Assembly: GCF_019636075.1 (NCBI RefSeq)
Contig: NZ_JAHBYG010000002.1
Coordinates: 62,001 to 126,000, forward strand
Source: Ferrovibrio sp.
GTDB lineage: Bacteria > Pseudomonadota > Alphaproteobacteria > Ferrovibrionales > Ferrovibrionaceae
Reading direction: 5' to 3'
Length of the DNA: 64,000 bases
Notes under the pieces: model-generated
Database searches by the model: none
Told to the model about the DNA's origin: nothing
The model's input: the letters and a program-made list of their open reading frames with translations, nothing else
Shown here: positions 23,204 to 40,700 of the stretch, piece after piece
Layout of the letters: each line of letters opens with the position of its first letter
How positions within the stretch are numbered: position 1 is the first letter of the stretch
Translations under genes and position numbers: made by a program

Positions 23204-23208
23204 GCCGC

Positions 23209-24150
23209 TCAGCCCAGCATCAGCGCGCGCACATGGGCGGCGGTGGCGGAAGCCAGCGCGGCGAGGTCGTAGCCGCCTTCCAGCGTGGAAACGACGCGGC
23301 CTTGCGCGGTTTCATCGGCAACGGCCAGCAATCGTTCGGTGATCCAGGCATAATCGTCGTCCTGCAGATTCAACTGCGCCAGCGGATCGCGGGCATGGCC
23401 GTCGAAGCCGGCCGAGATCATCACCAGTTCGGGCCGGAAGGCGCGTAGCATCGGCAGCAGGCTTTCGCTGGCGGCGGCGCGGAATTCCTGGCTGCCGGCA
23501 TAGGGCCTGAGCGGCAGGTTCAGGATGTTGTTGGCACAGCCGCGTTCGCTGGGGCGCCCGGTGCCGGGATAAAGCGGCCATTGATGGGTGGAGATGTAGA
23601 AGAGGTCGGGATCGTCGTTGAAACTGGCCTGGGTGCCGTTGCCGTGATGTACATCGAAATCGATCACCGCTACCCGCCGGATGCCCCAGCGTGCCCGGGC
23701 CTGCAATGCGCCGATGGCCACGTTGTTGAACAGGCAGAAGCCCATAGCCTGTTCCGGCTCGGCATGGTGGCCAGGCGGGCGCACGGCGCAGAAGGCATTG
23801 CGCACTTCGCCGGCCATCACCGCATCCACCGCAGCGCAGACCGCGCCCGCCGCCCGCAAGGCGGCTTCGCGCGAGCCTGGGCTGACCACGGTATCGCCAT
23901 CGATATAAGACAGGCTGCGCCCCCGGCCGCTTTCCGGGATGCTGCCCAGGATATGCTGGATATGCGCTTCCGGGTGCACCCGGGCGATCTGGTCCAATCC
24001 GGCCTCCGGGGCTTCCCGGCGATCCAGCCACATGAATTCCTCGGTCTCCAGGCGTGCCAGCACGGCTTGCAACCGTTCAGGGCATTCCGGGTGTCCGTCG
24101 CCCGTATCATGGCGTAGGCAGGCTGAATGGCTGTAGAGCGCCGTGACCAT
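23209..24150 (-). CDS. Histone deacetylase-family amidohydrolase
   Basis: A 313-residue zinc-dependent deacetylase of the arginase/HDAC fold. Active-site motifs are all visible: RPPGHHAE with the catalytic His-His pair, DFDVHHGNGT with Asp and His zinc ligands, SAGFDGHARDP with the third ligand, and LEGGYDL near the C-terminus. Bacterial members act on acetylated polyamines, small molecules or acetyl-lysine proteins; which one cannot be told here. The N-terminal TGDGHPECPERL is typical of the class II-like bacterial group. The gltS gene follows after five bases, suggesting a link with amino-acid or polyamine metabolism, but this is inference only. Confidence 0.92.
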   Translation of the reverse strand: MVTALYSHSACLRHDTGDGHPECPERLQAVLARLETEEFMWLDRREAPEAGLDQIARVHPEAHIQHILGSIPESGRGRSLSYIDGDTVVSPGSREAALRAAGAVCAAVDAVMAGEVRNAFCAVRPPGHHAEPEQAMGFCLFNNVAIGALQARARWGIRRVAVIDFDVHHGNGTQASFNDDPDLFYISTHQWPLYPGTGRPSERGCANNILNLPLRPYAGSQEFRAAASESLLPMLRAFRPELVMISAGFDGHARDPLAQLNLQDDDYAWITERLLAVADETAQGRVVSTLEGGYDLAALASATAAHVRALMLG

Positions 24151-24298
24151 TAAACGTGCAGTTCCTCTGCTGCTGGCGATGGTGTGGGCAGTCGATAAAT
24201 CGTCGGATAAATACTGTCATGTCAGAACATGGCTAGGCAACGCTCGGGCTACTTGTGTATTCTCATCGCAGGCCAGCAGCCAGGATTGAACAAAACAC

Positions 24299-25432
24299 AT
24301 GAAACTCTGGGGTCAGATTGCGTTGATCGCGGCGCTGGGCGCCGCGGGCACCGGCGCCTATTTGTATCGTGACAAGATTCCCTTCCTGACCCCGCCCTCG
24401 GCGGCGCCCCAGGCGGTGCGGGCTGGCGGCGGCGGCCCGCCGGCCTTGCCGGTGGAAACCGCGGCGGTGAAGCGCATGGATGTGGTGCGCACCCTGGAAG
24501 CCGTGGGCACCGCGCAATCCAATGAAGCCGTGAACGTGACCGCCAAGGCCAACGGCATCGTCGATCGCATCAATTTCCAGGAAGGCCAACTGGTGAAAAC
24601 CGGCAGCATCCTGGTGGAACTGGAAGCCGGCGAGTCGAATGCCAAGCTGGCCGAGCTGCGCGCTGCCCGCGATGCCGCACGGCTGGCTTATGATCGCGCC
24701 ACTGCGCTGGCCGAGAGCCGTTCCGTGGCCCAGGCGCGGGTGGACGATTTATCCAAAGCCTTCGAAGCCGCCGAAGCGCGGCTGCGCGGCGAGCAGGCGA
24801 AATTCGCCGACAGCGTGATCCGGGCACCGTTCAGCGGCAAGCTGGGCATGCGGCGGGTATCGCTGGGGGCGCTGGTGCGGCCGGGCGATGTGATCACCAC
24901 GCTGGACGATACCTCGCTGATCAAGCTGGAATTCGAAGTGCCGGAAACCGCGTTGAGCGGCATCGCCGTGGGCAATGCGGTAACCGCCACGGCCAGCGCC
25001 ACTCCGGGGCGTAAATTCCAGGGCAATGTCACCGTGATCAACAGCCGTGTGGATCCCACCACGCGCGCTATCAAAGTGCGGGCGCAGATTCCCAATGCCG
25101 ACGATGCCATCAAGCCCGGCATGTTCATGACGGTTGCATTGTCGATCGGCACCAGCAACAACGCCATCGTGGTGCCCGAGGAAGCCCTGCTGGCCCAGGG
25201 CGGCGAGCAATTCGTCTATGTGATCCGCGATGGCCGCGCCAGCCGCACGCGGGTGCGGATCGGCCAGCGCCTGCCCGGCATGGCGCAGATCCTGGAAGGC
25301 CTCGATGCCGATGCCCGGGTGGCGATTACCGGCCTGCAGCAATTGCGCGATGGCATGGCGGTGCGTCCGCCGGGGCCGCCGCCAGGGCAACAGCCTGCGC
25401 CGGCCACCGCCGCAAAACCCGCCGCCAGCTAA
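24299..25432 (+). CDS. RND efflux periplasmic adaptor subunit (pump 1)
   Basis: A 377-residue membrane-fusion protein. An N-terminal hydrophobic segment (about residues 5-22) anchors or exports it; it has no lipobox. The biotinyl-lipoyl-like hairpin ends are NVTAKANGIVDRINFQEGQLVKTGSIL and VIRAPFSGKLGMRRVSLGALVRPGD, separated by an alpha-helical hairpin (about 100-155). Beta-barrel and membrane-proximal domains follow, with the family element DPTTRAIKVRAQIPNA. The C-terminus is proline-rich (PPGPPPGQQPAP). It bridges the RND pump encoded 32 bases downstream to an outer-membrane channel, not encoded here. The substrate is unknown. Nearest ribosome binding site AGGA is about 13 bases before the start, rather far. 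Confidence 0.92.
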   Translation: MKLWGQIALIAALGAAGTGAYLYRDKIPFLTPPSAAPQAVRAGGGGPPALPVETAAVKRMDVVRTLEAVGTAQSNEAVNVTAKANGIVDRINFQEGQLVKTGSILVELEAGESNAKLAELRAARDAARLAYDRATALAESRSVAQARVDDLSKAFEAAEARLRGEQAKFADSVIRAPFSGKLGMRRVSLGALVRPGDVITTLDDTSLIKLEFEVPETALSGIAVGNAVTATASATPGRKFQGNVTVINSRVDPTTRAIKVRAQIPNADDAIKPGMFMTVALSIGTSNNAIVVPEEALLAQGGEQFVYVIRDGRASRTRVRIGQRLPGMAQILEGLDADARVAITGLQQLRDGMAVRPPGPPPGQQPAPATAAKPAAS

Positions 25433-25464
25433 GACACGCCACAAACCGAAGCCGCGAGGCAGCC

Positions 25465-28400
25465 ATGGTGCTCTCCGACGTTTCCATCAAGCGACCGGTC
25501 TTCGCCACCGTGATGTCGCTGGTGCTGATCATCTTCGGCCTGTTTGCCCTGCGCGGCATGGCGGTGCGCGAATATCCCGATATCGATCCGCCGGTGGTAT
25601 CGGTGAGCACCACCTATCGCGGCGCTTCGGCCGAGATCATCGAAAGCAAGATCACCCAGATCATCGAGGACAGCGTGGCGGGCATCGAGGGCATTCGCTC
25701 GATCACCTCGTCCAGCCGCGAGGAATCCTCCTCGGTTTCCATCGAGTTCAATCTCAGCCGCTCGGTGGATGCCGCCGCCAATGACGTGCGCGACCGCGTA
25801 AGCCGCGTGCTGTCGCGCTTGCCGGCGGAAGCCGACACGCCCACGGTGGCCAAGACCGAGGCCGATGCCCGGCCGATCGTGTATCTGTCGCTGACCAGCG
25901 ACCGCATGAGCTTCCTGGAACTCACCGATTATGCCGACCGTTTCCTGGTGGATCAGTTCTCCATCGTGGATGGCGTGGCCAGCGTGAATATCTATGGCGC
26001 CCGCAAATACGCCATGCGGGTCTATCTCGACCGCATGGCGATGGCGGCCCGCAATGTGACCGTGCAGGAAGTGGAAAGCGCGATTGCGCGGCAGAATGTG
26101 GAATTGCCGTCCGGCCGCGTGGAAAGCAGCCAGCGCGAATTCACCGTGCGCACCGAAAGCGGCCTGCGCACGCCAGAGCAATTCCGCAACATCGTGCTGC
26201 GCCAGCAGGATGGCTATCTGGTGCGGCTGGGCGAAGTGGCGAAGGTGGAACTCGGCGCCGAGGATGAGCGTTCGGAACAGCGCACCAATGCCAAACCCTC
26301 CATCGGCCTGGGCATCATCCGGCAATCCAAGGCCAATGCCATGGATATTTCCAATGGCGTGCAGGCGGCGCTGGATCGGGTGAAGGATTCGCTGCCCCAG
26401 GGCGTGAATCTGGAAGTGACCTACGATCAGTCGAAATTCATCAGCCAGTCGATCTACGAAGTGTTCCATGCCCTCACGGTGGCACTGGGCCTGGTGATCG
26501 GCGTGATCTTCCTGTTCCTGCGTTCCTGGCGGGCCACGCTGATTCCGGCGGTGGCGATTCCGGTTTCGGTGATCGGCAGCTTCATCGTGCTGGGTGCGCT
26601 GGGCTATTCGATCAATGTGCTGACCCTGCTGGCGCTGGTGCTGGCTATCGGCCTGGTGGTGGACGATGCCATCGTGGTGCTGGAAAACATCCATCGCCGC
26701 ATCGAACTGGGCGAGCCGCCGCTGCTGGCGTCTTTGCGCGGCGCACGGCAGATCGGCTTCGCGGTGATTGCCACCACGGTGGTGCTGATCGCGGTGTTCG
26801 TGCCGATCTCGCTGATGGAAGGCAATACCGGGCGGCTGTTCCGCGAATTCGGCATATCGGTAGCGGCCAGCGTGCTGTTCTCGGGCTTCGTGGCGCTCAC
26901 GCTCACGCCGATGATGTGTTCCAAGCTGCTGCACGAGGCGAAGGACGAGGGCTGGTTCTACAAGATCACCGAAAAATTCTTCGTCGGCATGACCAACGCC
27001 TATGGCTGGACGCTGAAGCAGGCGTTGAACATGCCCTTCGTGGTGCTGGCGCTGGGCGGCGTGGTGTCGCTGGCCGCCTACCTGATGTTTCTGGCTTTGC
27101 CGCGCGAATTCGCGCCCACCGAGGATCGCGGCGTGTTCTTCGTTTCGATGACCGGGCCGGAAGGCTCCAGCTACGATTATACCCGGCGCAATGTGATGCG
27201 GGTGGAGCAGGTGCTGCAGCCGTTGATCGATCGCGGCGACGTGACCCGCGTGCTGGCCAATGTGGCGCCGGGCTGGGGCGGCCGGCCGGCGCCGGTGAAT
27301 ACCGGCTTCATCGTGGTGCGGTTGAAGGATTGGCATGAGCGTACGGTGAAGCAGCAGGATCTGGTGCGGGAGGTGTTTCCGCGTCTGCTCGGCATCACCG
27401 GCGTGCGCGCCTTCGCCATCAATCCGCCCAGCCTGGGCCAATCGGGCAGCCAGGCGCCGGTGCAGTTCATCATCGGCGGCCCCACCTATGCCACGCTGGA
27501 TCAATGGTCGGAACGCGTGATGGAACGCGCGTTGGGCAATCCCAACCTGCTGAATCTGACCAAGAGCTATCTGCCCACCCGGCCGGAAATCCGGGTTGAG
27601 ATCGACCGCAACCGCGCCGCCGATCTTGGTGTGCCGATCGAAACCATCGGCCGCACCATGGAAACCATGCTGGGTTCGCGCGAGGTGACCAACTTCCAGC
27701 GCGAAGGCAAGCAATACAAGGTGCTGGTGCAGGCCCGGCCGGAGGATCGCGTCACGCCGTCCGACCTCAACAATATCTATGTGCGCACCGTCTCGGGCGC
27801 GCTGATCCCGTTGCAAAATCTGGTGAAGATCGGCGAGGGCGCCAATGCCCGCGAACTCACCCGCAACGACCGTCTGCGGTCGGTCACCATCACCGCCTCG
27901 CTGACCCCGGATTACACCCTGGGCGAAGCGCTGGATTATCTGGAGAAGGTGGCCGCCGAAACCCTGCCGCCGGAAGCGCGCATCACCTATGGCGGACAGA
28001 GCCGCGAATTCAAGGATTCCTCGGCCGCCGTGTATCTCACCTTCGCGCTGGCGCTGGTGATCGTGTTCCTGGTGCTGGCCGGCCAGTTCGAAAGCTGGAT
28101 CCACCCGGTGATCATCATCTTCTCGGTGCCGCTGGCGATTACCGGCGCGCTGGGTGCGCTGCTGTTCAAGGGGCTGTCGTTGAACATCTACAGCCAGATC
28201 GGCATCATCATGCTGATCGGCCTGATCGCCAAGAACGCCATCCTGATCGTGGAGTTCGCCAACCAGCTGCGCGATGAAGGCCGCGATGTGCGCACGGCGG
28301 TGCAGGATTCCTCAACCATCCGCCTACGGCCGATTCTGATGACCACGATTGCCACGATCTTCGGTGCCATGCCGCTGGCTTATGCCACCGGGGCGGGTGC

Positions 28401-28596
28401 GGAAAGCCGCTCGGCGCTGGGCTGGGTGATTGTCGGCGGCATGAGTTTTGCCACATTACTCAGCCTTTATGCCGTGCCGGCGCTGTATCTTCTGCTGGCG
28501 GGCTTCGCCAAGCCGGCAGGCTTCATTGCACGCAGACTTTCCGATATGGATGCTAAGCAGCCGGATGTGGATGCCAAGCATGGCGTTGCGGAATAG
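25465..28596 (+). CDS. RND efflux pump, inner-membrane permease (pump 1)
   Basis: A 1043-residue HAE-type RND permease of the AcrB/MexB/MdtC superfamily: twelve helices and two large periplasmic loops. N-terminal SIKRPVFATVMSLVLIIFGL is typical. The TM4 proton-relay aspartates are in GLVVDDAIVVLENI (about residues 400-413), and a TM10 lysine partner lies in GLIAKNAILIVEFANQ. The sequence between the halves follows the usual duplication. It most resembles the branch used with a single adaptor and a separate TolC-like channel. It lies 32 bases after its adaptor gene with GAGG before the start. Exported compounds cannot be inferred. A second, more divergent RND pair is at 36.6-40.8 kb. Confidence 0.94.
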   Translation: MVLSDVSIKRPVFATVMSLVLIIFGLFALRGMAVREYPDIDPPVVSVSTTYRGASAEIIESKITQIIEDSVAGIEGIRSITSSSREESSSVSIEFNLSRSVDAAANDVRDRVSRVLSRLPAEADTPTVAKTEADARPIVYLSLTSDRMSFLELTDYADRFLVDQFSIVDGVASVNIYGARKYAMRVYLDRMAMAARNVTVQEVESAIARQNVELPSGRVESSQREFTVRTESGLRTPEQFRNIVLRQQDGYLVRLGEVAKVELGAEDERSEQRTNAKPSIGLGIIRQSKANAMDISNGVQAALDRVKDSLPQGVNLEVTYDQSKFISQSIYEVFHALTVALGLVIGVIFLFLRSWRATLIPAVAIPVSVIGSFIVLGALGYSINVLTLLALVLAIGLVVDDAIVVLENIHRRIELGEPPLLASLRGARQIGFAVIATTVVLIAVFVPISLMEGNTGRLFREFGISVAASVLFSGFVALTLTPMMCSKLLHEAKDEGWFYKITEKFFVGMTNAYGWTLKQALNMPFVVLALGGVVSLAAYLMFLALPREFAPTEDRGVFFVSMTGPEGSSYDYTRRNVMRVEQVLQPLIDRGDVTRVLANVAPGWGGRPAPVNTGFIVVRLKDWHERTVKQQDLVREVFPRLLGITGVRAFAINPPSLGQSGSQAPVQFIIGGPTYATLDQWSERVMERALGNPNLLNLTKSYLPTRPEIRVEIDRNRAADLGVPIETIGRTMETMLGSREVTNFQREGKQYKVLVQARPEDRVTPSDLNNIYVRTVSGALIPLQNLVKIGEGANARELTRNDRLRSVTITASLTPDYTLGEALDYLEKVAAETLPPEARITYGGQSREFKDSSAAVYLTFALALVIVFLVLAGQFESWIHPVIIIFSVPLAITGALGALLFKGLSLNIYSQIGIIMLIGLIAKNAILIVEFANQLRDEGRDVRTAVQDSSTIRLRPILMTTIATIFGAMPLAYATGAGAESRSALGWVIVGGMSFATLLSLYAVPALYLLLAGFAKPAGFIARRLSDMDAKQPDVDAKHGVAE

Positions 28597-28646
28597 GCTG
28601 GCGACCTGTTGCAAGCAGTGGGGTGGGGTGTGAGGATTTTCAGGCA

Positions 28647-29072
28647 ATGAGCGGCGCGGGTGCCGACGATCCGGCGAATTTCGCCGCGGCCCTGGCACAG
28701 GCGCAGGCTGCCGTGGCCGCCATGGCGGATGAGTATATCGGCTGGGTGACCGCCGATCTGGTGCGGCTGGACGAGGCGGTGGCGGCGATAGACCCCGCCA
28801 ACCCGCCAGCCGGCCTGAAAGCCGCCCATGGTGTGGCGCATGATATCAAGGGCCAGGGCGCCACATTCGGCTACAAGCTGGTGACCGATATCGCCGCCAT
28901 GCTGTGTCGATATCTGCAGCATCATGCCGAGACCGGGAGTTACGATCCCGAGGTGATCGAGGCCCATGTGCAGGCGTTGAAGACCGTGGTGGAGAACCGC
29001 GTGAAGGGCGATGCCGGCGCGCTGGGTCAGGAGATACTGGCCACCTTGCAGGAAGTGGGCGGCCCCGCCTAA
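28647..29072 (+). CDS. Histidine phosphotransfer (Hpt) domain protein
   Basis: A 141-residue, all-helical protein carrying an Hpt four-helix bundle. His65 in VAHDIKGQGATFGY is the expected phospho-accepting residue, with the usual small residues and Lys/Gly following. The protein has only this domain, so it would shuttle phosphate between a hybrid kinase and a response regulator encoded elsewhere; no two-component genes are nearby. It follows the RND pump by 50 bases and could be in the same transcript. A GTG at 28623 is an alternative in-frame start adding eight residues; 28647 is preferred as the first ATG. Confidence 0.8.
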   Translation: MSGAGADDPANFAAALAQAQAAVAAMADEYIGWVTADLVRLDEAVAAIDPANPPAGLKAAHGVAHDIKGQGATFGYKLVTDIAAMLCRYLQHHAETGSYDPEVIEAHVQALKTVVENRVKGDAGALGQEILATLQEVGGPA

Positions 29073-29245
29073 GGGCCGCATCCCGCGCCGTTAACCTTTT
29101 CGGATAAGGCCGGCACTGCGACGATCCGTCCTGATTCCCCCTCTTTTCAGGCCGGGTAGCGAGTCGTTAGTATGGCTCTACCAGCAATTCCAAGGCCTTG
29201 GATCCGCGCTGTCGCGGGCCGGGCTGCCGGGAGAGGCATTGCCCC

Positions 29246-30460
29246 ATGGACTATGAAGCCATTTTCGGCCAGGCGGTCGAGAAACTGCGCGATGAAAAGC
29301 GCTATCGGGTGTTCACCGAATTGGCCCGGCAGGTTGGGCAATTTCCGGTCGCCGACAATTTTTCGGGCATCGGCCCGGAGAAGATCACCATCTGGTGCTC
29401 CAACGATTATCTCGGCATGGGCCAGCATCCCGTGGTGGTTGAGGCCATGGCATCGGCGGTGCGCCGCTATGGCGCCGGCGCCGGCGGCACGCGCAACATC
29501 TCGGGCAACCATCACGCCATCGTGGAACTGGAAGCCGAACTGGCCGACCTGCATGGCAAGCAGGCCGCCCTGGCTTTCGGCTCGGGCTATGTCGCCAACC
29601 AGACCAGCCTGGCCACCATCGGCAAGCTGCTGCCCGGCTGCGTGATCCTGTCGGACGCCGACAACCACAATTCGATGATCGAGGGCATCCGCCAGTCCGG
29701 TTGCGAGCGGCATGTATTTCGCCACAATGACCTGGCGCATCTGGAAGAATTGCTGAAGGCGTTGCCCATCGGCAAGCCGAAGCTGATCGCTTTCGAGAGT
29801 GTGTATTCCATGGATGGCGATATCGCGCCGATCCATGCGGTTTGCGATCTGGCCGACAAATACAATGCCATGACCTATATCGACGAGGTGCATGCTGTGG
29901 GCATGTATGGCCCGCGCGGCGCCGGTGTTGCCGAACGCGACAACGCGATGCATCGCATCACCGTGATCCAGGGCACCTTGGCCAAGGGCTTTGGCGTTGT
30001 GGGCGGCTATATCGCGGCGTCGAAAGATCTGGTTGATGCCGTCCGCTCCTATGCGCCGGGTTTCATCTTCACCACCACGATGCCGCCGGCAGTGGCGGCC
30101 GCAGCCACGGCCAGCGTGCGCTATCTCAAAAACAGCCAGGTGGAACGCGCCCGCCACCAGGAACGCGCCGCCACCTTGCGCCGCATGTTGCAGGCTGCCG
30201 GTTTGCCGGTGATGATGAACCAGAGCCATATCGTGCCGGTGATGGTGGGCGATCCGGCCTTGTGCAAGCTGGCCTCCGATCTGCTGCTCAGCGACCACGG
30301 CGTTTATATCCAGCCGATCAACTATCCCACCGTGCCGCGCGGCACCGAGCGTTTGCGCATCACACCCACGCCGGTCCATACCGACGAGATGATGCGCGGC
30401 CTCACCGGTTCGCTGGGCGCGGTCTGGGAAAAGCTGGGGCTGCGGCGCCGCGCGGCCTGA
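29246..30460 (+). CDS. hemA: 5-aminolevulinate synthase
   Basis: A 404-residue PLP enzyme of the alpha-oxoamine synthase family that condenses glycine and succinyl-CoA to 5-aminolevulinate, the first step of heme synthesis in alphaproteobacteria (Shemin pathway). Recognisable stretches are [44 protein letters not shown], the PLP-pyridine contact [15 protein letters not shown], and the Schiff-base lysine in [13 protein letters not shown]. The start MDYEAIF at 29246 is preceded by GGGAGAGG and is the conserved beginning of this enzyme; an upstream extension to 29198 has no family support. It is one of the strongest taxonomic indicators in the window. No FnrL-like site is obvious upstream. Confidence 0.96.
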
Positions 30461-30667
30461 CGAGCCTTGCGCATATTTTGCTACAATTGAGGCGCCATGC
30501 TGCTGCGGCCTACCGCCGCGATCAGTGTCGAATGCTCCGTGTAGAATAGATTGCGCGCAGAATGCATAAACTCTTGAAGAGAGTGCGGGTGTAGAGCCTA
30601 CGACTGTTGCAAGGGCAAATTGCCGCAGGGTATTCTGCCGGCAAACCTTCCCCAAGAGTCCCGCTTC

Positions 30668-31156
30668 ATGGCGTCGAGAGTCTACACATCACTGGTGGAT
30701 TTCGGTTTCAAGCCGGAAGACATGAACCAGATGGCACAGCGCTTGCGCTATTCCCATGTGGTCTTCATTGCCGGACCTCCGGGCGGCGGCAAAACCGCCT
30801 GCGCCACCATGCTGGGCTGGTTCCTGTTTCAGGGCGTGAAGCGGCCATTCCGGGCCGATGGTTCCACCTTGTCGGTGGAGCAGGTGCGCGAGGCGGCGAT
30901 CCAGGGTACCCATGGCATCTTCTTCAACGAGGTGGCCACCCAGGCCGATCTCACGAAGTCGGTCTATTGCGCCGATTGCCGCATGGTGTCGCTGGTCACC
31001 AGCGTGATCGCCGAGCCGAAAGTGCCGCAGATTTTCCAGATCTTGAATTTCTTCAATCCCAAAGTGGCTGCGCGCAAGGATTTGATCCTGGTCGGCGTAG
31101 AGCCCGATGGCGACCGCTTCAAGGTCGATTGCAAGTTTCCGCCAGCACCGGTCTAA
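30668..31156 (+). CDS. Small orphan P-loop protein resembling a GspE/PilT fragment
   Basis: A 162-residue protein I cannot assign to a named family. It has a clear Walker A motif GPPGGGKT (36-43) after a hydrophobic strand HVVFIA, and a Walker B-like GIFFNEV (83-89). The segment before the P-loop (FGFKPEDMNQMAQRL) resembles the LGF-x-L-x-LL lead-in of GspE/PilB/PilT secretion ATPases, and residues 72-115 can be laid over their Walker B and following region, but the Asp box, the His box and the C-terminal zinc domain are missing. CADC at 101-104 is a Cys pair. The closing ILVGVEPDGDRFKVDCKF looks like a beta hairpin. No secretion or pilus genes are nearby. The start at 30668 is the first ATG; an alternative TTG is at 30620. 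Role unknown. Confidence 0.7.
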   Translation: MASRVYTSLVDFGFKPEDMNQMAQRLRYSHVVFIAGPPGGGKTACATMLGWFLFQGVKRPFRADGSTLSVEQVREAAIQGTHGIFFNEVATQADLTKSVYCADCRMVSLVTSVIAEPKVPQIFQILNFFNPKVAARKDLILVGVEPDGDRFKVDCKFPPAPV

Positions 31157-31167
31157 CCTGCCCAGGT

Positions 31168-32100
31168 CTAACTCGCCGGCGTGAAGCGGCGGGTGATGGC
31201 CACGCCGGTCAACACGATGGCGGCCCCGAAAGCCTGGATAAGGCTGAAGGTTTCGCCCAGCAGCAGATTGGCGCTGACGACGGCCACCACCGGTATCAGG
31301 TAGGAGTAAACCGCCGCGCGGCTCACGCCCAGGCGCGAAATGCCTTCATACCACCACAGATTTCCAAGCGCCGCCGAGCCGATCGCGGTGAACAGGAAAC
31401 AGGCGATGATCGGCAGGGTGAAGGCATCGGATGTGACGTCGCCGAGGTTGAGCAGGCCGATCGGCAGCAGGCCAAGAGCGCCGAAAAATAATGTCCAGGC
31501 CGAAACCGGCAATGCGCCCATGCTTTTCAGATAAGGCGTGGCCATCACCGAATAGAATGCCCATAGCATGGCGGCAAACAGGATTGCCGCATCGCCCAGC
31601 AGGCTGCCGCCGCCCAGGGTGATGGCGGTGAGGCTGTTGTTGAGCACCAGAAACACGCCGCCGAATGAGAGCAGGATGCCGAACCAGGCCAGCGGCCCGG
31701 GCAGGGCATCGCTGCTGCCGCCTTTGATCAGATGCCGCGCGATGCTGAACAAGTTGGTGAAGATCGGTGCGGTGGCGATCAGCACGGCGGCCTTGGAGGC
31801 GGTGGTGAGATTGAGGCCGGCGCTCCACACATACTGGTTCAGGCTGATGCCGAGCAGGCCGAGCAGGATCAGCATCGGCAGATCGCGCCGGCGCGGCAGA
31901 TAGAGCACACCGCGCCAGCGCAGCAACAGCAACAGCAGGATGCAGGCAATGAGGAAGCGGGAGGATACGAATACCGAGGGCGACAGTTCGGTCATCACGA
32001 TCTTCGCGCTGGCGAAGGTATTGCCCCACAGCATAATTGTGGCCAGCAGATAGAAATCGCCGGCGAAATTCTTAGTGCGGCGATTGGGCGCTTCACTCAT
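31168..32100 (-). CDS. EamA-family (drug/metabolite) transporter
   Basis: A 310-residue inner-membrane protein with ten predicted helices formed by two EamA (DMT) repeats of about 150 residues; the first runs from FYLLATIMLWGNTFASAKI, the second from GDAAILFAAMLWAFYSVMATPYL. The conserved Trp-Gly and the late GxxLVxxGV-type end (FGAAIVLTGVAITRR) are present. Members export amino acids or other metabolites; the substrate is unknown. The start at 32100 overlaps the stop of the upstream MFS gene as ATGA, so the two carriers are translationally coupled. Its stop lies 11 bases from the convergent P-loop gene. The same frame stays open upstream into the MFS gene; this is not a fusion. Confidence 0.9.
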   Translation of the reverse strand: MSEAPNRRTKNFAGDFYLLATIMLWGNTFASAKIVMTELSPSVFVSSRFLIACILLLLLLRWRGVLYLPRRRDLPMLILLGLLGISLNQYVWSAGLNLTTASKAAVLIATAPIFTNLFSIARHLIKGGSSDALPGPLAWFGILLSFGGVFLVLNNSLTAITLGGGSLLGDAAILFAAMLWAFYSVMATPYLKSMGALPVSAWTLFFGALGLLPIGLLNLGDVTSDAFTLPIIACFLFTAIGSAALGNLWWYEGISRLGVSRAAVYSYLIPVVAVVSANLLLGETFSLIQAFGAAIVLTGVAITRRFTPAS

Positions 32101-33323
32101 CGGCTGCTGCCTTTCAGTTTTTCCGTTCGGCGCAGCAACAGCGCCAGGCCCAGGCCGATCAGCCCGGCCAGCAGCAACAGCCAGCGACCTCGGCCCCAGC
32201 CGTCCTGGCCAGAACCGCCGCCGAATTGCGTGACCAGCAAAGCCAGCGCCGGCGGCCCCAGAAAGGCGCCGAGATTCAGCACCTGCACCACCACGCCATT
32301 CACGGTGGCGATTTCCTCTGGTTTGCGCGCATGCAGCGGCACGCTGGCCAGCACGGCGGCCGGGATCATGCCGCCAAGCCCCGATGCCAGAAAGGCGAAG
32401 CCCAGCTTGGTGCTGCCGGCGATGCCGGGGCCGAAGATCATCAAGCCGCACAGCCCCATGATGGTGCTGACGCATGCGATGATCAGCCAGCGTGCCACGC
32501 CGCGCTGCATCAGCAGCGCCGCGCAAAGCCCGCCCAGCACATTGGCCAGCACCACCAGGATCGTGCCGTAATTGCCGGCGGCCAGGCCGGCGCTGTTCAG
32601 ATAGCTGGGCAGCCAGGTGATGATGGCAAACCATTGCAGGGCGTAGAAAGCGAAACAGCCGGCCAGCAGCCATGGGCCGGCCTGCGCGAGGGCGGAAAGC
32701 TGTATCTTGCGGCGCGTCGGTTGGGCGGCGATGGCGGGGCTCAGCAGTAAGGCCAGGGCAAACAGCAACAGCATGCCGGCCATGGCAAGCCACAGCCCGC
32801 GCCAGCCCAGCCAGGCGCTGAGCGGCGGTGTCAGCAGCAGGCCCAAAGCCACACCCAGCGGCATGTAATTCGCCCACAGACCTAGCGCCAGCTTGCTTTG
32901 TTCGGGCCGGATCAGCCGGGCGATCAGGCTGGGCCCGGCCACCACGGTGAGCACGAAACCGATGCCTTCCACCAGCCGACCGGCCACCAGCAGCCAGCTT
33001 CCGTTGCCAAAATAGCCGGCCTGGACGTATCCAGCCTGGGCGCCGATCAGGTTGCCCAGACCGAGCAGGCCGAGGCCAAGCGCCTGGGCGTGGCGGCCGC
33101 CGAGCCGGTCGCTGACCATGCCGCCCAGGATGCCCAGGCCGCCGCCGATCAGGTTATAGGCTGAGGCCATAAGGCCGGCGCCCACCATGCCGAGGGCGAA
33201 TTCGGCGCGCAGGCCATCCAGCAGCGGCGGCATCTTGCCGACCTGCAGCCCGCAGGCGATGCCCGCCAGCATCACAATGCTGAAGGCAGCCCAATTGCTG
33301 TTCGTTATTGGCTTCCCGGACAT
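32097..33323 (-). CDS. MFS permease
   Basis: A 408-residue, 12-helix major facilitator. The loop 2-3 motif is GGMVSDRLGGRHAQ and the first helices read AAFSIVMLAGIACGLQVGKMPPLLDGL. The general plan resembles the cyanate/nitroimidazole (CynX/NimT-like) or anion:cation symporter groups, but I cannot assign a substrate. The C-terminus runs straight into the start of the EamA gene (ATGA overlap), so both form one unit. Two in-frame starts, 33323 (MSGKPIT) and 33368 (MAAPLPP), are possible; neither has a clear ribosome binding site, and 33323 gives the more typical length before the first helix. Confidence 0.85.
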   Translation of the reverse strand: MSGKPITNSNWAAFSIVMLAGIACGLQVGKMPPLLDGLRAEFALGMVGAGLMASAYNLIGGGLGILGGMVSDRLGGRHAQALGLGLLGLGNLIGAQAGYVQAGYFGNGSWLLVAGRLVEGIGFVLTVVAGPSLIARLIRPEQSKLALGLWANYMPLGVALGLLLTPPLSAWLGWRGLWLAMAGMLLLFALALLLSPAIAAQPTRRKIQLSALAQAGPWLLAGCFAFYALQWFAIITWLPSYLNSAGLAAGNYGTILVVLANVLGGLCAALLMQRGVARWLIIACVSTIMGLCGLMIFGPGIAGSTKLGFAFLASGLGGMIPAAVLASVPLHARKPEEIATVNGVVVQVLNLGAFLGPPALALLVTQFGGGSGQDGWGRGRWLLLLAGLIGLGLALLLRRTEKLKGSSR

Positions 33324-33451
33324 GTTTTTGATGGCACAAAAATATAAGGGCGGCAGGGGAGCCGCCATGGTCTGTCATGGCCGCCACTGTGTAGAGCGGC
33401 TGGTGCGATGGCAACCCGTTCCGCAGCGGAAACCGAATCCGGCTAAAACAA

Positions 33452-33479
33452 AACGCCCGGCAGTTTCCTGCCGGGCGTT
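33452..33479 (-). terminator. Rho-independent terminator after the binding-protein gene
   Basis: AACGCCCGGCAG (33452-33463) pairs perfectly with CTGCCGGGCGTT (33468-33479) around a four-base loop. Read on the minus strand the hairpin is followed by TTTGTTTTAG, a terminator-like T-rich run. It lies 24 bases after the stop codon of the substrate-binding protein gene. Confidence 0.9.
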
Positions 33480-33503
33480 GGCGATCAATCCTTGCGGATC
33501 GGA

Positions 33504-34538
33504 TCAGGGCATCATGCGCTCGGCCTTCGGCGGCAGGAAGGCGTTGGTGAACAGCTCGTCTGCCTTCGGCGCCCGCTCCAGGCCCACGGCTTCGGCCACG
33601 GCCTTGGCGGAACGCTCCAGGCGACCGGCATCGACATCGCCGAAGCCATTGGCCTTCACCCAGGGGGTGAGCACGTTACGCTGCAGCGAGAGGTTCAGGC
33701 GCTCCAGTTCCAGCGCCTCGTCGATCAGGCCGTCGCGGGTCTTGGCGGCAGCGGAACCGATCTTCGGATCCTTGGCGATTTCCTGCCAGGCCTTGATGGT
33801 GGCCTTCACGAAGCCCTTCACGGCATTCGGGTTGGCAGCCATGAAGCTGGGCGAGGCGATCACGGCGTTGCCGTAGAAATCCATCCCGAAATCGGAATAG
33901 AAGAACACCTGCACATCATTCGGATCGACGCCGATCTTCTTCAGGTCGAGCAGCGAGGAGAAGAAGTGGCCGGTGATGAAATCCACCGAGCCGTTCTTCA
34001 ACGAGGGCTCGCGCAGCGGCGGGGCCAGGTTGATGTTGGTCACCTTCTTCAGGTCGATGCCGGTCTTGGCGGCAAAGGCCGGAAACAGCTTGAACGAGGC
34101 GTCGAATACCGGGGCGCCCAGCTTCTTGCCTTCCATGTCCTTCGGGGTCTTGATGCCCGAGGATTTCAGCGCATAGGCGCCGAACGGCGGGGCGTCGTAG
34201 GCCATCATCACGGCCTTCACCTGCTTGTCGGCATTCTTCACGTTGTATTCGATCAGCGCGTTGATGTCGGCAAAGCCCATTTCATAGGCGCCGGTGGCCA
34301 CACGCTGCAGCGCGCCGGCCGAACCCTGGCCGGCATCCAGCGTCACGTCCAGGCCCTCGGCCTTGTAGTAACCCTTCTGTTCGGCCAGCAGGAAGGCCGC
34401 GGTGGGGCCCTGGAAGGCCCAGTCGAGGGTGAACTTGAACTTGGTCTGCGCGGCGGCCTCGCCGGCGATGCCGAAGGCCAGGCCCAGGCTCGCGCCAAGG
34501 CCAAGGAGGGCGGCGCTCAGCTTCAGTTGGATGGTCAT
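33504..34538 (-). CDS. ABC substrate-binding protein, NMT1/TauA type
   Basis: A 344-residue periplasmic binding protein with a signal peptide (hydrophobic about residues 8-28, cleavage after EAAAQ). The mature start KFKFTLDWAFQGPTAAFLLAEQKGYYKAEGLDVTL is the classic opening of the NMT1/SsuA/TauA family, which binds sulfonates, nitrate, thiamine precursors or related compounds. The gene stands alone: no permease or ATPase is adjacent and a terminator follows, so it must use subunits encoded elsewhere. CAGGGAG precedes the ATG at 34538 by nine bases; an ATG eight codons further upstream (34562) is less likely. Two copies of an 11-bp repeat lie 37-61 bases upstream. Ligand undetermined. Confidence 0.88.
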   Translation of the reverse strand: MTIQLKLSAALLGLGASLGLAFGIAGEAAAQTKFKFTLDWAFQGPTAAFLLAEQKGYYKAEGLDVTLDAGQGSAGALQRVATGAYEMGFADINALIEYNVKNADKQVKAVMMAYDAPPFGAYALKSSGIKTPKDMEGKKLGAPVFDASFKLFPAFAAKTGIDLKKVTNINLAPPLREPSLKNGSVDFITGHFFSSLLDLKKIGVDPNDVQVFFYSDFGMDFYGNAVIASPSFMAANPNAVKGFVKATIKAWQEIAKDPKIGSAAAKTRDGLIDEALELERLNLSLQRNVLTPWVKANGFGDVDAGRLERSAKAVAEAVGLERAPKADELFTNAFLPPKAERMMP

Positions 34539-34574
34539 CTTGGATGGCTCCCTGTGTGACACGTCGGTAGATGA

Positions 34575-34599
34575 TACGGCGTAGAGGCTACGGCGTAGA
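34575..34599 (-). promoter_or_regulatory. Direct repeat TACGGCGTAGA x2 upstream of binding protein
   Basis: TACGGCGTAGA occurs at 34575-34585 and 34589-34599, 14 bases from start to start, 37-61 bases upstream of the binding-protein start on the opposite strand. Position and spacing would suit an operator or activator site, but no regulator is adjacent. Confidence 0.4.
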
Positions 34600-34907
34600 T
34601 GTTTGGTGCCGGCGGCGTTCCCTGGCTATCGGGCCGGGGCGATCCAGGCGGCACAAGCGGACAGTCTATGCCGTCTGGTTGTGCGCCGCCAAGGTCGAAT
34701 CGCTACCGGGCCGCGGATCATACCGGTACCCTTTAACGGATTGTTCGTATGCAAATCCGGGACCAGTCATTGCCCCCGGGCCGATCTGCGGCAAAGCGCC
34801 GAAATTTGCGGCCACGGGGGTGGGGTGGAATGTCCTGGTACAATTATGCGGCAGGCTGCCTATTTTCTTGGCTATTTCCCCGGCGACCGGCTATCGGTAC
34901 CCCCTAA

Positions 34908-36185
<1,278 letters not shown>

Positions 36186-36327
36186 TGCAACCGGCTCGGG
36201 CGAGGATGAAAAGAGTGATGGCCGTCACGCCGGGCATAGACGCCGCTTCCGGCGGCCCGGCGGCGATGCTATCTGGTCGCCCGAGTAGCATTGTGCGTTG
36301 CAGTATAACGTGCGGGGAGCAATCCTG

Positions 36328-36588
36328 ATGCCCACGACGGTGAAAAAACGCTCCGTCATGGTGGGCGGGCATCGTACCAGCATTTCGTTGGAACGGGCCT
36401 TCTGGGTCGCCTTGCGCGAATTGGCGGCCAGCGATGGCAAGACCATCAACAAGATGGTCTCCGACATCGATGCCGAGCGTGCTGGCAATCTTTCCAGCGC
36501 CATCCGCGTACATGTGCTGGCTCGGGCCCGTCTGGGCCAATTGGCCGCCGAACCGCCCCAGGCGGCACAGGTGGAAGAAGACATATAG
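36328..36588 (+). CDS. Ribbon-helix-helix protein (RHH_4 type)
   Basis: An 86-residue small protein. Residues 5-65 resemble the RHH_4 family: the beta strand KRSVMVGGHRTSISL, then two helices with WVALRELAASDGKTINKMVSDID. Family members are thought to bind DNA, but few have been tested. A ribosome binding site GGGGAG lies about eight bases before the start. The RND efflux operon begins 46 bases downstream on the same strand, so the protein may control that pump or simply precede it. The tail (AAEPPQAAQVEEDI) is acidic and probably disordered. Confidence 0.82.
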   Translation: MPTTVKKRSVMVGGHRTSISLERAFWVALRELAASDGKTINKMVSDIDAERAGNLSSAIRVHVLARARLGQLAAEPPQAAQVEEDI

Positions 36589-36634
36589 GCGGCGCCATCT
36601 CGGCTCCGCCAGTGCGACTGGTGGAGACGGTATC

Positions 36635-37747
36635 ATGGCGGCGCTAACCCGGCCTTTGCTCTCGATCACGCTGCTGGCCTTGCTGCCGCTGCTGTCTGCC
36701 TGCGAACAGCCGCCGCCGCCGCCCGAGCCGATCCGCCCGGTGCGGGTGGCCACTGCCCAGCCCCAGCCGTTTGAAAGCCGCTCGACATATACCGGCGAAG
36801 TGCGCGCCCGTTACGAGACCAATCTGGCCTTCCGTATCGGCGGCAAGATCGTGGCGCGCTATGTGGAAATCGGCAGCGAGGTGAAGAAGGGCACGCTGCT
36901 GGCCCGGCTGGATCCAGAGGATACCAGGCTGGCCATCGAGAATGCCCGCGCCCAGGTGAATGCCGCCCAGGCCGACATGAACCAGACCCAGGCCGATCTG
37001 GCGCGCTATCGCCGGCTGTTCGATACCAAGGTGATCAGTCAGGCCGAATTCGACCGCCGCGAGGCGGTGGCGCAATCGGCCGCCGCCAAGCTGGAAAGCG
37101 CACGGTCGCAATTGCGCGTGTCGCAGAACCAGATGGCCTATACCGAATTGAGCGCCGATGCCGATGGCGTGGTTACCTCGCTGACCGCCGAGTCAGGCCA
37201 GGTGGTGGCCGCCGGCCAGACCGTGCTGCGCCTGGCGCGGCCGGAGGAAAAGGAAGTGGTGTTCAACGTGGCGGAGAACCGCCTGGATGAACTGCGCAAT
37301 GCCGGCAGCATCCGGGTTTCGCTTTGGGCCCAACAGGATGTCAGCGTGGCCGCCAGCGTGCGCGAGATCGCGCCCGGCGCCGATCCGGTCACCCGCACCT
37401 ATGCCGTGAAGCTGAGCGTGCCCAATCCGCCGCCCGGCATGCGGCTGGGTATGACCGCTTCGGTGGAAATCCTGCGCCGCGATGGCGGCAATGTGGTGGC
37501 CCTGCCGCTATCGGCGCTGTACCAGAAGCAGGCCGATCCGGCGGTATGGGTGTTCGACCCGGCCAGCGAGACCGTGAAGCTGCGGCCGGTGAAGGTGGCC
37601 GCCTACGTGGAGAAATACGTGCTGATCGCCGATGGCCTGAAGCCCGGCGAGCAGGTGGTGACCGCCGGCGTGCATAAACTGATTCCGGATCAGAAGGTGC
37701 GCCTGCTGCCCGGTGCGGCGAATGGCGCGGGGAGCCGCGCGTCGTGA
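36635..37747 (+). CDS. RND efflux periplasmic adaptor lipoprotein (pump 2)
   Basis: A 370-residue membrane-fusion protein exported as a lipoprotein: signal LLALLPLLSAC with lipobox Cys23. The lipoyl halves are NLAFRIGGKIVARYVEIGSEVKKGTLLARLD and MAYTELSADADGVVTSLTAESGQVVAAGQ, with the alpha-hairpin (about 90-150) between them. The beta-barrel segment NPPPGMRLGMTASVEI is present. It differs clearly from the pump 1 adaptor, which lacks a lipobox. Its stop overlaps the GTG start of the permease, so the two are coupled. A longer frame starts upstream in the RHH gene but the lipoprotein start at 36635 is decisive. Confidence 0.92.
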   Translation: MAALTRPLLSITLLALLPLLSACEQPPPPPEPIRPVRVATAQPQPFESRSTYTGEVRARYETNLAFRIGGKIVARYVEIGSEVKKGTLLARLDPEDTRLAIENARAQVNAAQADMNQTQADLARYRRLFDTKVISQAEFDRREAVAQSAAAKLESARSQLRVSQNQMAYTELSADADGVVTSLTAESGQVVAAGQTVLRLARPEEKEVVFNVAENRLDELRNAGSIRVSLWAQQDVSVAASVREIAPGADPVTRTYAVKLSVPNPPPGMRLGMTASVEILRRDGGNVVALPLSALYQKQADPAVWVFDPASETVKLRPVKVAAYVEKYVLIADGLKPGEQVVTAGVHKLIPDQKVRLLPGAANGAGSRAS

Positions 37748-40700
37748 GTTTTTCCGATCGCACCAATCTGTCTGCCTGGGCGCTGCGGCATCCTTCGCTG
37801 ATCGGCTTCCTGATCGCCATGCTGCTGCTGGCCGGCGGCATGGCTTATGCGAATCTCGGCCGTGCCGAGGATCCGGACTTCACCTTCAAGCTGATGATCG
37901 TGCGCTCCAACTGGCCGGGCGCCACGGCGCGCGAGATGGAGCAGCAGGTTACCGACAAGATCGAGAAGAAGCTGCAGGAGACGCCCTATCTCAGCCATGT
38001 GATGAGTTTCTCCAAGCCGGGTGAATCCACGGTTTATGTGGTGTTGCGCGACGATACTCCGCCCAAGCAGGTGGAGGGCGTGTGGTATCAGGTGCGCAAG
38101 AAGGTGAACGATATCCGCCACACCTTGCCGCAGGGCACCCAGGGGCCGTTCTTCAACGACGAATTCGGCGATACATTCGGCACCATCTACGCCTTTACCG
38201 CCGATGGCTTCACCCATCGCGAATTGAAGGATTACGTGGAAACCGTGCGCGAGGAATTGCTGCGCATCCACGATGTGGGCAAGGCCGACCTGCTGGGCGT
38301 GCAGCCCGAACGCATCTATATCGAATTCTCGAACAAGAAGCTGGCCAATCTGGGCATCACGCCGCAGCAGATCGTGGATGTGCTGCAACAGCAGAATACG
38401 CAATCCTCTTCCGGCGTGGTGGAAACCCCGTCGGACCGCATCTACACGCGCGTATCGGGCAATTTTCAGGATGTGCGCGCGCTCACCGAATTGTCGGTGA
38501 ATGCCAATGGCCGCCTGCTGCGGCTGGGCGATGTGGCCGATATCAAGCGCGATTATGTGGATCCGCCAGCGGCGCAATTCCGCTTCAACGGCGAGCCCGC
38601 CATCGGCCTGGCGGTGAGCATGGCCAAGGGCGGCAACATGATCGAGCTGGGCAAGAAGCTCGAGGCGGCGATGCGGCAGATCCGGGCCGACATGCCGATC
38701 GGCATCGAATTGCAGAAAGTGGCCGATCAGCCCACCGTGGTTCAGCGCAGCATCGACGAATTCATGAAGGTGCTGCTGGAAGCCGTCGTGATCGTGCTGG
38801 GCGTAAGCTTCCTCAGCCTCGGCCTGCGCTCCGGCTTCGTGGTGGCCCTGTGCATTCCGCTGGTGCTGGCCATCACTTTCGTTTGCATGCAGATTTTCGG
38901 CATCGATTTCCAGCGCATTTCGCTGGGCGCCTTGATCATCGCACTGGGTCTGCTGGTGGACGACGCCATCATCGCGGTGGAGATGATGCAGGTGAAGATG
39001 GAGCAGGGCATGGAGCGCGCCAAGGCTGCCGCTTTCGCCTATACCTCCACGGCTTTTCCGATGCTGACCGGCACATTGATCACGGCGGCCGGCTTTGTGC
39101 CGGTGGGTTTCGCCCGGTCGGCGGCTGGTGAATACACGTTTTCGATCTTCGCGGTGGTGACGATCTCACTGCTGGTTTCCTGGATCGTGGCGGTGATCTT
39201 CACGCCGTTCATCGGCTACAAGCTGCTGCCTACGCCCAAGCCGGGCGCCCATGGCCATGATGTGCATCATGGCGGCATCTACCGTTTCGTACGCCCGGTG
39301 GTGGGCTGGTGCGTGGGGCATCGCTGGATCGTCATCGCGGTCACGCTCGGCATTTTCGCCGGATCGGCCTACAGCTTCCAGTTCGTGCAGCAGCAATTCT
39401 TCCCGGCATCCAACCGGCCTGAATTGATGGTGGATCTGCGCCTGCCGCAGGGTGCATCCATCGCGGCTACCCAGCAGGAGGCATTGAAGCTGGAGAAACT
39501 GCTGAAAGACGATCCGGATATCGAGAATTACACCACCTATGTGGGCAGCGGCGCACCGCGCTTCTATCTGCCGCTGGATATCCAATTGCCGAACGACAAT
39601 TTCGCGCAGGTGGTGGTGCTTACCAAGGGCGATGCCGAACGCGAGCGGGTGCGCGCTCGGCTGATCAAGCTGTTCCAGGAAGATTTCGTGCTGTTGCGCG
39701 GTCGTGTGAACCGCTTGGAAAACGGCCCCCCGGTGGGTTTCCCGGTGCAGTTCCGCGTATCCGGGCCCGATCCGATGGAGGTGCGCAGGATCGCCTTCCA
39801 GGTGGCCGATGTGATGCGCACCAATGCCAATACGCGCGATGTGAATCTGGATTGGAACGAACTCAGCAAGGTCGTGAAGCTGGATGTGGACCAGGCCAAG
39901 GCACGTCTGCTCGGCATGTCGTCGCAGGATTTGTCGCTGGCGCTGAATTCCGTGCTCAGCGGCATCACCATCACGCAATACCGCGAAGGCAAGGAATTGA
40001 TCGACGTGGTGGCGCGTGCCGAGGCTTCCGAACGCCTCAGCCTGTCCGGCATCAAGGATTTGAATGTCGGCGGCGGCGAGAATGGCCGGCCGGTGCCGCT
40101 TACCCAGGTGGCGGAAGTTTCCTATGCGCAGGAGCAAGGCATCATCTGGCGGCGCGACCGCCAGCCGGTGATCACCGTGCGCGCCGATGTGGTGGATGGC
40201 ATTCAGGCGCCCGTTGTGTCGCAGCAGTTGAACCCGCGGCTGAACGAATTGCGCAGCCAGCTGGCGCCGGGCTATCGCATCGTGATGGGCGGTGCCATCG
40301 AGGAAAGCGCCAAGGGCAATGCCTCGATCGGCGCCGTGGTGCCGGTGATGATCCTGATCATGGTGACGTTGCTGATGGTGCAGTTGCAAAGCGTTTCGCG
40401 CATGCTGCTGGTGCTGCTCACCGCGCCGCTGGGGCTGATCGGCATCACGCTCGCTCTGCTCACCTTCAATGTGCCGTTCGGCTTCGTGGCCATGCTGGGC
40501 GCCATCGCGCTGGCCGGCATGATCATGCGCAACTCGGTGATTCTGGTGGATCAGATCGACCAGGATATCGCCGCCGGCCATACGCCCTGGGATGCGGTGA
40601 TCGATGCCACGGTGCGCCGCTTCCGGCCCATCGTGCTCACTGCATTGGCGGCCATCCTGGCGATGATCCCGCTGTCGCGCAGCAATTTCTGGGGTCCGAT

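Follow-up and report, generated by a model that had tools for sequence, protein, structure and literature searches.

ATPases of the PilT/GspE type are chiefly known from pili and secretion systems, in which they act as hexameric motors. VirB11, DotB, and the CpaF/TadA proteins also form hexamers, and each carries an N-terminal domain in addition to its catalytic domain. In PilB, according to the structural report (PMC5424180), a glycine takes the place of the Walker B acid, and Glu 357 of the ASP box therefore holds the magnesium, Glu 395 is the catalytic glutamate, and His 420 of the HIS box touches the γ-phosphate. Two arginines from the neighboring packing unit, Arg 271 and Arg 286, contact both Glu 357 and the phosphates, and two arginine fingers are named there as conserved. 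By residue range, and in our own reading, these fingers are Arg 271 and Arg 286 and lie inside N2D. In the report on DotB (PMC6153414), the N-terminal domain is described as docking onto the ASP-box strand of the neighbor, the following strand, and the helix that precedes Walker B. A member of the PilT clade that stands apart from these motors is the archaea-specific MJ1533-like family, in which the ATPase is fused to PIN and KH domains; it is reported never to have been found in secretion contexts and is predicted to have DNA or RNA roles (PMC4858521). Whereas the MJ1533-like protein is archaeal and composed of several domains, the protein described here, P0001, is a bare core encoded in a bacterium.

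The gene for P0001 (30668..31156, + strand) was found in the window, a stretch of 64,000 nucleotides from Ferrovibrio sp. The genome to which it belongs measures 4.01 Mb and is divided among 85 contigs. The reading frame extends from the ATG at 30668 to the TAA ending at 31156 and contains 162 codons, and its description as a gene for a single-domain P-loop protein is based on the open reading frame list, the orthologues, an AlphaFold2 model, and fold matches. A sequence-only reading of this DNA had reported a 162-residue frame with the motifs GPPGGGKT and GIFFNEV, and both are indeed present, at residues 36-43 and 83-89, respectively. The GC content at third codon positions is 0.78, close to the 0.80 of the adjoining hemA, and the gene is thus composed like a resident one.

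A full-length orthologue is present in all ten Ferrovibrio genomes searched, that of the window among them. Four of the orthologues are 81-83% identical to P0001 and five are 35-39% identical, which divides the genus into a near and a far clade. Each of the ten frames begins at an aligned ATG and is 162-168 codons long. The alignment used throughout, referred to as A1, has ten rows, one per genome, and comprises eight distinct sequences, over which 38 columns are invariant. Within the clades the dN/dS ratios lie between 0.115 and 0.296 for 18 of the 20 pairs, the other two pairs showing no amino acid change, and inside each of the two clades the gene is under purifying selection. Between the clades dN is 0.62-0.73 for the P0001 gene as compared to 0.13-0.15 for hemA, such that the divergence of the former is about fivefold that of the latter; the corresponding dS values for the P0001 gene are 0.80-1.6, and at such high values the between-clade dN/dS ratio is unreliable. 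Given the ten orthologues, the aligned start codons, the invariant columns, and the low dN/dS ratios, the frame is not a chance one but a real gene. The second match to P0001 in its own genome is weak (L002, E 0.147).

The polypeptide chain of P0001 starts at the lead-in to the catalytic domain, an SL-x-DFGF motif at residues 8-14 (30689..30709, + strand) delineated from the invariant positions of A1 and from a comparison with T2SSE proteins. Ser 8, Leu 9, Asp 11, Phe 12, Gly 13, and Phe 14 are invariant in A1. The sequence SLVDFGF in P0001 corresponds to SLEELGF, TLENLGF, ALEDLGF, and SLNDLGW in the T2SSE proteins L057, L059, L061, and L071, respectively, and in all five proteins the lead-in lies 23 or 24 residues before the P-loop. 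The lead-in had been noticed previously as resembling that of secretion ATPases, and an SLxxLGF-type motif is common to P0001 and the four T2SSE proteins. N2D with its arginine fingers is missing, in keeping with the earlier statement that the N-terminal domains are absent. The Walker A motif, GPPGGGKT at residues 36-43 (30773..30796, + strand), is defined by Gly 36, Pro 37, Gly 39, Gly 41, Lys 42, and Thr 43, which are invariant in 10/10 sequences with the consensus GPxG[GS]GKT.

Asp 64 (30857..30859, + strand), likewise invariant in 10/10, follows Lys 42 by 22 residues. The same distance separates the Walker A lysine from the ASP-box glutamate in eight of nine distinct motor genes; in the ninth, which is of the PilT type, it is 23. 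The earlier statement that the ASP box is absent is too simple and is corrected here: an invariant acid, an aspartate instead of the glutamate, occupies the ASP-box spacing, the register being set by that spacing. In the Walker B-like segment, GIFFNEV at residues 83-89 (30914..30934, + strand) by motif and A1, position 88 corresponds to the catalytic glutamate and is occupied by Glu in five of the ten rows and by Asp in the other five, those of the far clade. The preceding position 87 is Asn or His where the atypical Walker B of the motors has a glycine. Like PilB, GspE, and PilT, P0001 carries a residue other than an acid ahead of the catalytic one, and it also has in common with them the spacing between the Walker A lysine and the ASP-box acid. 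The counterpart of the HIS box was assigned by spacing to residues 103-112 (30974..31003, + strand). On that assignment Arg or His occupies the place of the first histidine and Ser or Ala, in 10/10, that of the second, which is the conserved one in the motors, so that the reported lack of a HIS box is correct for the conserved histidine.

The distance between the ASP-box acid and the catalytic acid is 24 residues in the P0001 family versus 42 or 45 in the motors. Approximately 18 residues would thus be gone after the ASP box, exactly where the N-terminal domain of a neighboring subunit docks. The loss of this stretch and the loss of N2D fit together, and they suggest, on the basis of spacing and fold, that the nucleotide site has been kept and the ring interface given up. 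The tetra-cysteine cluster of the motors is also missing in the P0001 family, which contains two to four cysteines in all. The profile-profile alignment with the motors is confident only up to approximately residue 60, and the motif map beyond the ASP box consequently relies on spacing and on the fold. The proposal that P0001 may be a degenerate ATPase is apt with respect to the hexamer parts, which have been lost, but not with respect to the acids of the nucleotide site, which remain.

The AlphaFold2 model of P0001, calculated with A1, has a pLDDT of 90 and a pTM of 0.86. A second model, that of the far-clade orthologue from G006 (37% identical to P0001), has a pLDDT of 87; the two are not fully independent given that alignment members are common to both. 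A Foldseek search with the P0001 model returned PilT (2ewv) as the best solved match, with a value of 5.5e-07, and the best 50 rows consist of 46 chains of PilT, PilB, PilF, GspE, EpsE, or DotB and four chains of an archaeal RuvB-like helicase. For the far-clade model the top match is PilF (5oiu, 2.8e-07). With VIA-align, the P0001 model matches PilB (5zfr) with a Z-score of 15.3, 158 of its 162 residues being aligned at 3.1 Å, and GspE (4pht), PilT4, and DotB with Z-scores of 14.9, 14.4, and 13.0, respectively. The archaeal RuvB-like helicase, which we take to be of the MJ1533-like kind (PINA), ties with the motors at 14.7 for 5yww and reaches 13.9 for 5f4h.

Lower Z-scores, only slightly higher than that of DnaB, were obtained for the VirB11 proteins (11.3-12.4), CpaF (11.8), and FlaI (11.3). 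VirB11, DotB, and CpaF/TadA accordingly display the catalytic fold of the P0001 model with Z-scores of 11 to 13, but they have an N-terminal domain and P0001 does not. DnaB and KaiC share with P0001 a RecA-like core with a Walker A motif, yet at 10.7 and 9.6 they fall below PilB, GspE, and PilT; FlaH gives 9.5. The far-clade model behaves similarly, with values of 14.8 for GspE and PilB, 10.7 for T7 gp4, and 10.3 for DnaB, and in both models PilB and GspE lie ∼4 Z units above the DnaB-type folds. As judged from these models, P0001 carries the catalytic-domain fold of PilB, GspE, and PilT over nearly its whole length. The comparison with PilT and GspE that had been proposed as a check thus returned these proteins as the best matches and not an unrelated P-loop family. 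The first match in a viral structure library is a phage protein named DotB (7.4e-05), which is consistent with the fold assignment and does not inform the function.

By itself the sequence is ambiguous with regard to family, most library matches being confined to the P-loop and belonging to various families. The Pfam T2SSE model (PF00437) gives P0001 13.8 bits over 40 residues, under its cut-off of 24.9, and nSTAND3 (PF20720) gives 24.2 bits, under its cut-off of 27.2, over 38 of 155 positions. Among the ten orthologues, nSTAND3 matches all ten (best 2.9e-05), AAA all ten (0.019), T2SSE nine (0.0012), and AAA_16 four (0.0007, better than the best for T2SSE). The best NCBIfam model is FtsE (9.1e-05, five members), the GspE models giving 0.0039 or worse. 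In PHROGs the DnaB-like helicases match five members (0.0005). PADLOC yielded several families, the best being Cas3e (7.5e-06, four members); for P0001 these matches span 24-33 residues around the P-loop, and no role in defense is proposed. When the profile was compared with the sequences of solved structures, no PilT or GspE chain was found among the best 60 matches, the first of which is replication factor C (0.0092). The earlier assignment of the protein as GspE/PilT-like is therefore upheld at the level of the fold, in both models, and not at that of Pfam, where T2SSE is under its cut-off and another P-loop family scores higher.

With hhalign, A1 matches a set of ten motor sequences, nine of them distinct (L092 and L101 are the same in sequence), with a Prob of 91.3. 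The ten were selected out of 17 loci by a filter that required a classical P-loop and a GE-x-R motif. The Prob is 78.2 for DnaB and 2.1 for the VirB11/Tad set, whose profile failed to align with that of P0001, and the latter value counts against a close relationship to VirB11. A search of genomes with the A1 profile is more telling than the libraries. In a sample of 385 genomes from the class, four members of the genus were recovered in full, and 21 genomes outside it have short matches (1.9e-5 to 0.001), for 16 of which loci exist. A motif filter flagged four of the 16 as T2SSE-like (ranks 1, 3, 5, and 15) and left 12 unflagged. Pfam, applied to ten of these loci, identified all four flagged ones as T2SSE; the six unflagged ones are two ABC transporters, a DnaB, a PhoH, an IPP transferase, and one with no family at 1e-10. 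One T2SSE relative, a 344-residue protein encoded at 967-1998 of L061 (G116:C10; Pfam 113 bits) with the P-loop GPTGHGKT, possibly represents another unusual branch. By the tests made, with a Pfam score under the cut-off and neither the conserved HIS-box histidine nor N2D in place, P0001 falls outside the T2SSE family, although its construction is that of the core of a T2SSE protein.

Within what was searched, the P0001 gene is restricted to the genus. No orthologue was found in eight other genomes of the family, in which there are only short P-loop matches (E at least 0.0018), and in a sample of 398 genomes from the phylum nothing was found at 1e-5 or better beyond the window's own gene; the class and phylum samples overlap, and at most nine candidates were scored per genome. 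Mobile relatives were sought as well. The phages gave no match, the viral contigs gave 311 pattern matches with no relative of P0001 among them, and the plasmids gave only seven partial matches (E 0.04-0.9), one of which is annotated as a T2SS/T4P/T4SS-family ATPase. No comparable stand-alone bacterial form was apparent in the literature at the level of titles and the opening lines of abstracts. It had been asked whether the short form is conserved: in the genus it is kept in 10/10 genomes, and outside the genus none was found in the samples.

On a different contig, the genome of the window has a single complete T2SSE motor, which by eye is the GspE of an operon for type II secretion. The cluster (G000:C38, L103 8426-18906) includes by eye a prepilin peptidase with GspE, F, G, D, and other components, and it lies not far from genes for multihaem cytochrome and iron-sulfur proteins. 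No match to PF00437 at 0.001 was found in G006 (one contig, 100% complete, 57/57 candidates scored), in G003 (99% complete, 62/76 candidates scored), or in G009 (72% complete, 29/29 candidates scored). At this threshold PF00437 misses the P0001 gene too, and an equally diverged motor could therefore be missed. Since G006 keeps the P0001 gene and shows no motor detectable with PF00437, the gene seems to be independent of a pilus, type II, or type IV secretion motor. In the window, as had been stated before, no pilus or secretion genes were recognized by eye among frames of at least 80 residues within 22000-40000 and at least 250 residues elsewhere.

The immediate upstream neighbor, on the same strand in 10/10 genomes of the genus, is hemA (29246..30460, + strand; Pfam Aminotran_1_2, 6.3e-75), the product of which we take to be 5-aminolevulinate (ALA) synthase. 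The last sense codon of hemA and the ATG of the P0001 gene are 89-210 bases apart, and there is no tight operon spacing. A diverged homologue behind hemA was sought in seven genomes from other genera of the family that have hemA, and none was found; G012, one of the seven, has only ∼600 bases beyond hemA, and in another family genome (G014) there is no hemA match at 1e-80. The downstream genes differ. In the window there is, by eye, an EamA-type transporter gene; in the near-clade genome G003 there are genes of the chlorite dismutase and YkuD families (Pfam), as in G007 and G009 by eye; and in the far clade there are OmpW in G008 and chorismate mutase in G006 (Pfam). Scans of 30300-31300 for a consensus promoter and terminator found nothing. 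The sequence GACTACCCCTGATAGTACTA, which occurs shortly before the ATG of the orthologue in three far-clade genomes (L035, L036, and L039) and as variants in the other two, could be a promoter or an operator. Before hemA in the window is an Hpt-domain gene (28623-29245; Pfam 24.5 bits, just under the cut-off). A receiver-domain gene accompanies it in far-clade genomes (by Pfam in G002) and, as judged by eye, in several of the family's other genera; in the window the gap between the Hpt gene and hemA is only 173 bases, and no receiver gene is present there. An 891-codon frame on the minus strand at 25429-28104, antisense to a gene for an RND-type transporter, is most likely a shadow frame arising from the high GC content at third positions.

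The fixed position of the gene behind hemA, and that position alone, points to HemA, or to the regulation of heme supply, as the partner of P0001 to be considered first, although we hold this suggestion to be a weak and rather doubtful one. In mitochondria ClpX is reported to activate ALA synthase (PMC7077987), and this example makes control of ALA synthase by a P-loop protein possible but goes no further.

How should a protein with an intact nucleotide site and none of the outer parts of a motor be understood? We regard as probable, if by a modest measure, that P0001 is a motor-type catalytic core by descent that acts as a nucleotide-dependent switch rather than as a motor. That it might instead belong to another P-loop branch, such as DnaB, RecA, KaiC, STAND, or AAA, and merely look like a motor domain, is suggested by nSTAND3 as the best Pfam match in every member, by the FtsE and DnaB-like helicase models that each recognize five members, by the hhalign result with DnaB, and by the lack of any motor among the best 60 solved-structure sequence matches. 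For P0001, however, the library matches center on the P-loop region, and the whole-domain structural scores of both models, together with the SLxxLGF lead-in at its shared spacing of 23-24 residues, favor PilB and GspE. We thus consider separate ancestry unlikely. Far less probable is that the frame is what remains of a GspE or PilB gene in decay, or that it arose by chance. The protein is short, its outer domains are absent, and its divergence between the clades is strong in comparison with that of HemA, all of which might be expected of such a remnant, but this interpretation is already contradicted by an intact frame of nearly equal length with an aligned start in 10/10 genomes, by the low dN/dS ratios within the clades, and by a compact and confidently predicted model.

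It could also be argued that P0001 has remained a small, active ATPase machine, either assembling into a ring by way of new interfaces or docking onto a different P-loop protein, and that it does work on a protein, for instance HemA, much as mitochondrial ClpX does on ALA synthase. The Walker A motif is intact, both acid positions are acidic, hemA is a constant neighbor, and the ClpX example provides a precedent. Against such a machine are the missing N2D arginine fingers, the missing second histidine of the HIS box, and the ∼18 residues absent after the ASP box, as well as the 89-210 bases that separate the gene from hemA, and we judge it to be slightly less likely than a separate P-loop ancestry. 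The choice of a switch over a motor follows from the combination of a nucleotide site that has been kept and hexamer parts that have been lost.

According to the switch interpretation, P0001 would descend from a motor of the PilB/GspE/PilT type, and specifically from its RecA-like catalytic domain. The Walker A motif, Asp 64, and the catalytic acid, whether Glu or Asp, would have been retained for holding Mg-ATP, and N2D with its arginine fingers, the docking stretch that follows the ASP box, and the HIS-box histidine conserved in the motors would have been lost together with the hexamer. The protein would be expected to function alone or in a small assembly, binding and releasing a partner in response to nucleotide, with ATP hydrolysis that is slow or nil and without the action of a translocating motor. 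The suggestion that it is a regulator descended from a motor, which the sequence-only reading had offered as one possibility, is plausible. A more extended history, in which the catalytic domain of a motor was freed in the ancestor of the genus, was recruited to control, in a nucleotide-dependent manner, the enzyme that begins heme synthesis, and later gave rise to two clade-specific functional types, can be envisaged but strikes us as improbable. A motor-type core that is under selection in a genome without a detectable motor would show that this fold can survive as a small switch. P0001 may also serve as a minimal domain for probing, one at a time, what the ASP box, the HIS box, and N2D contribute.
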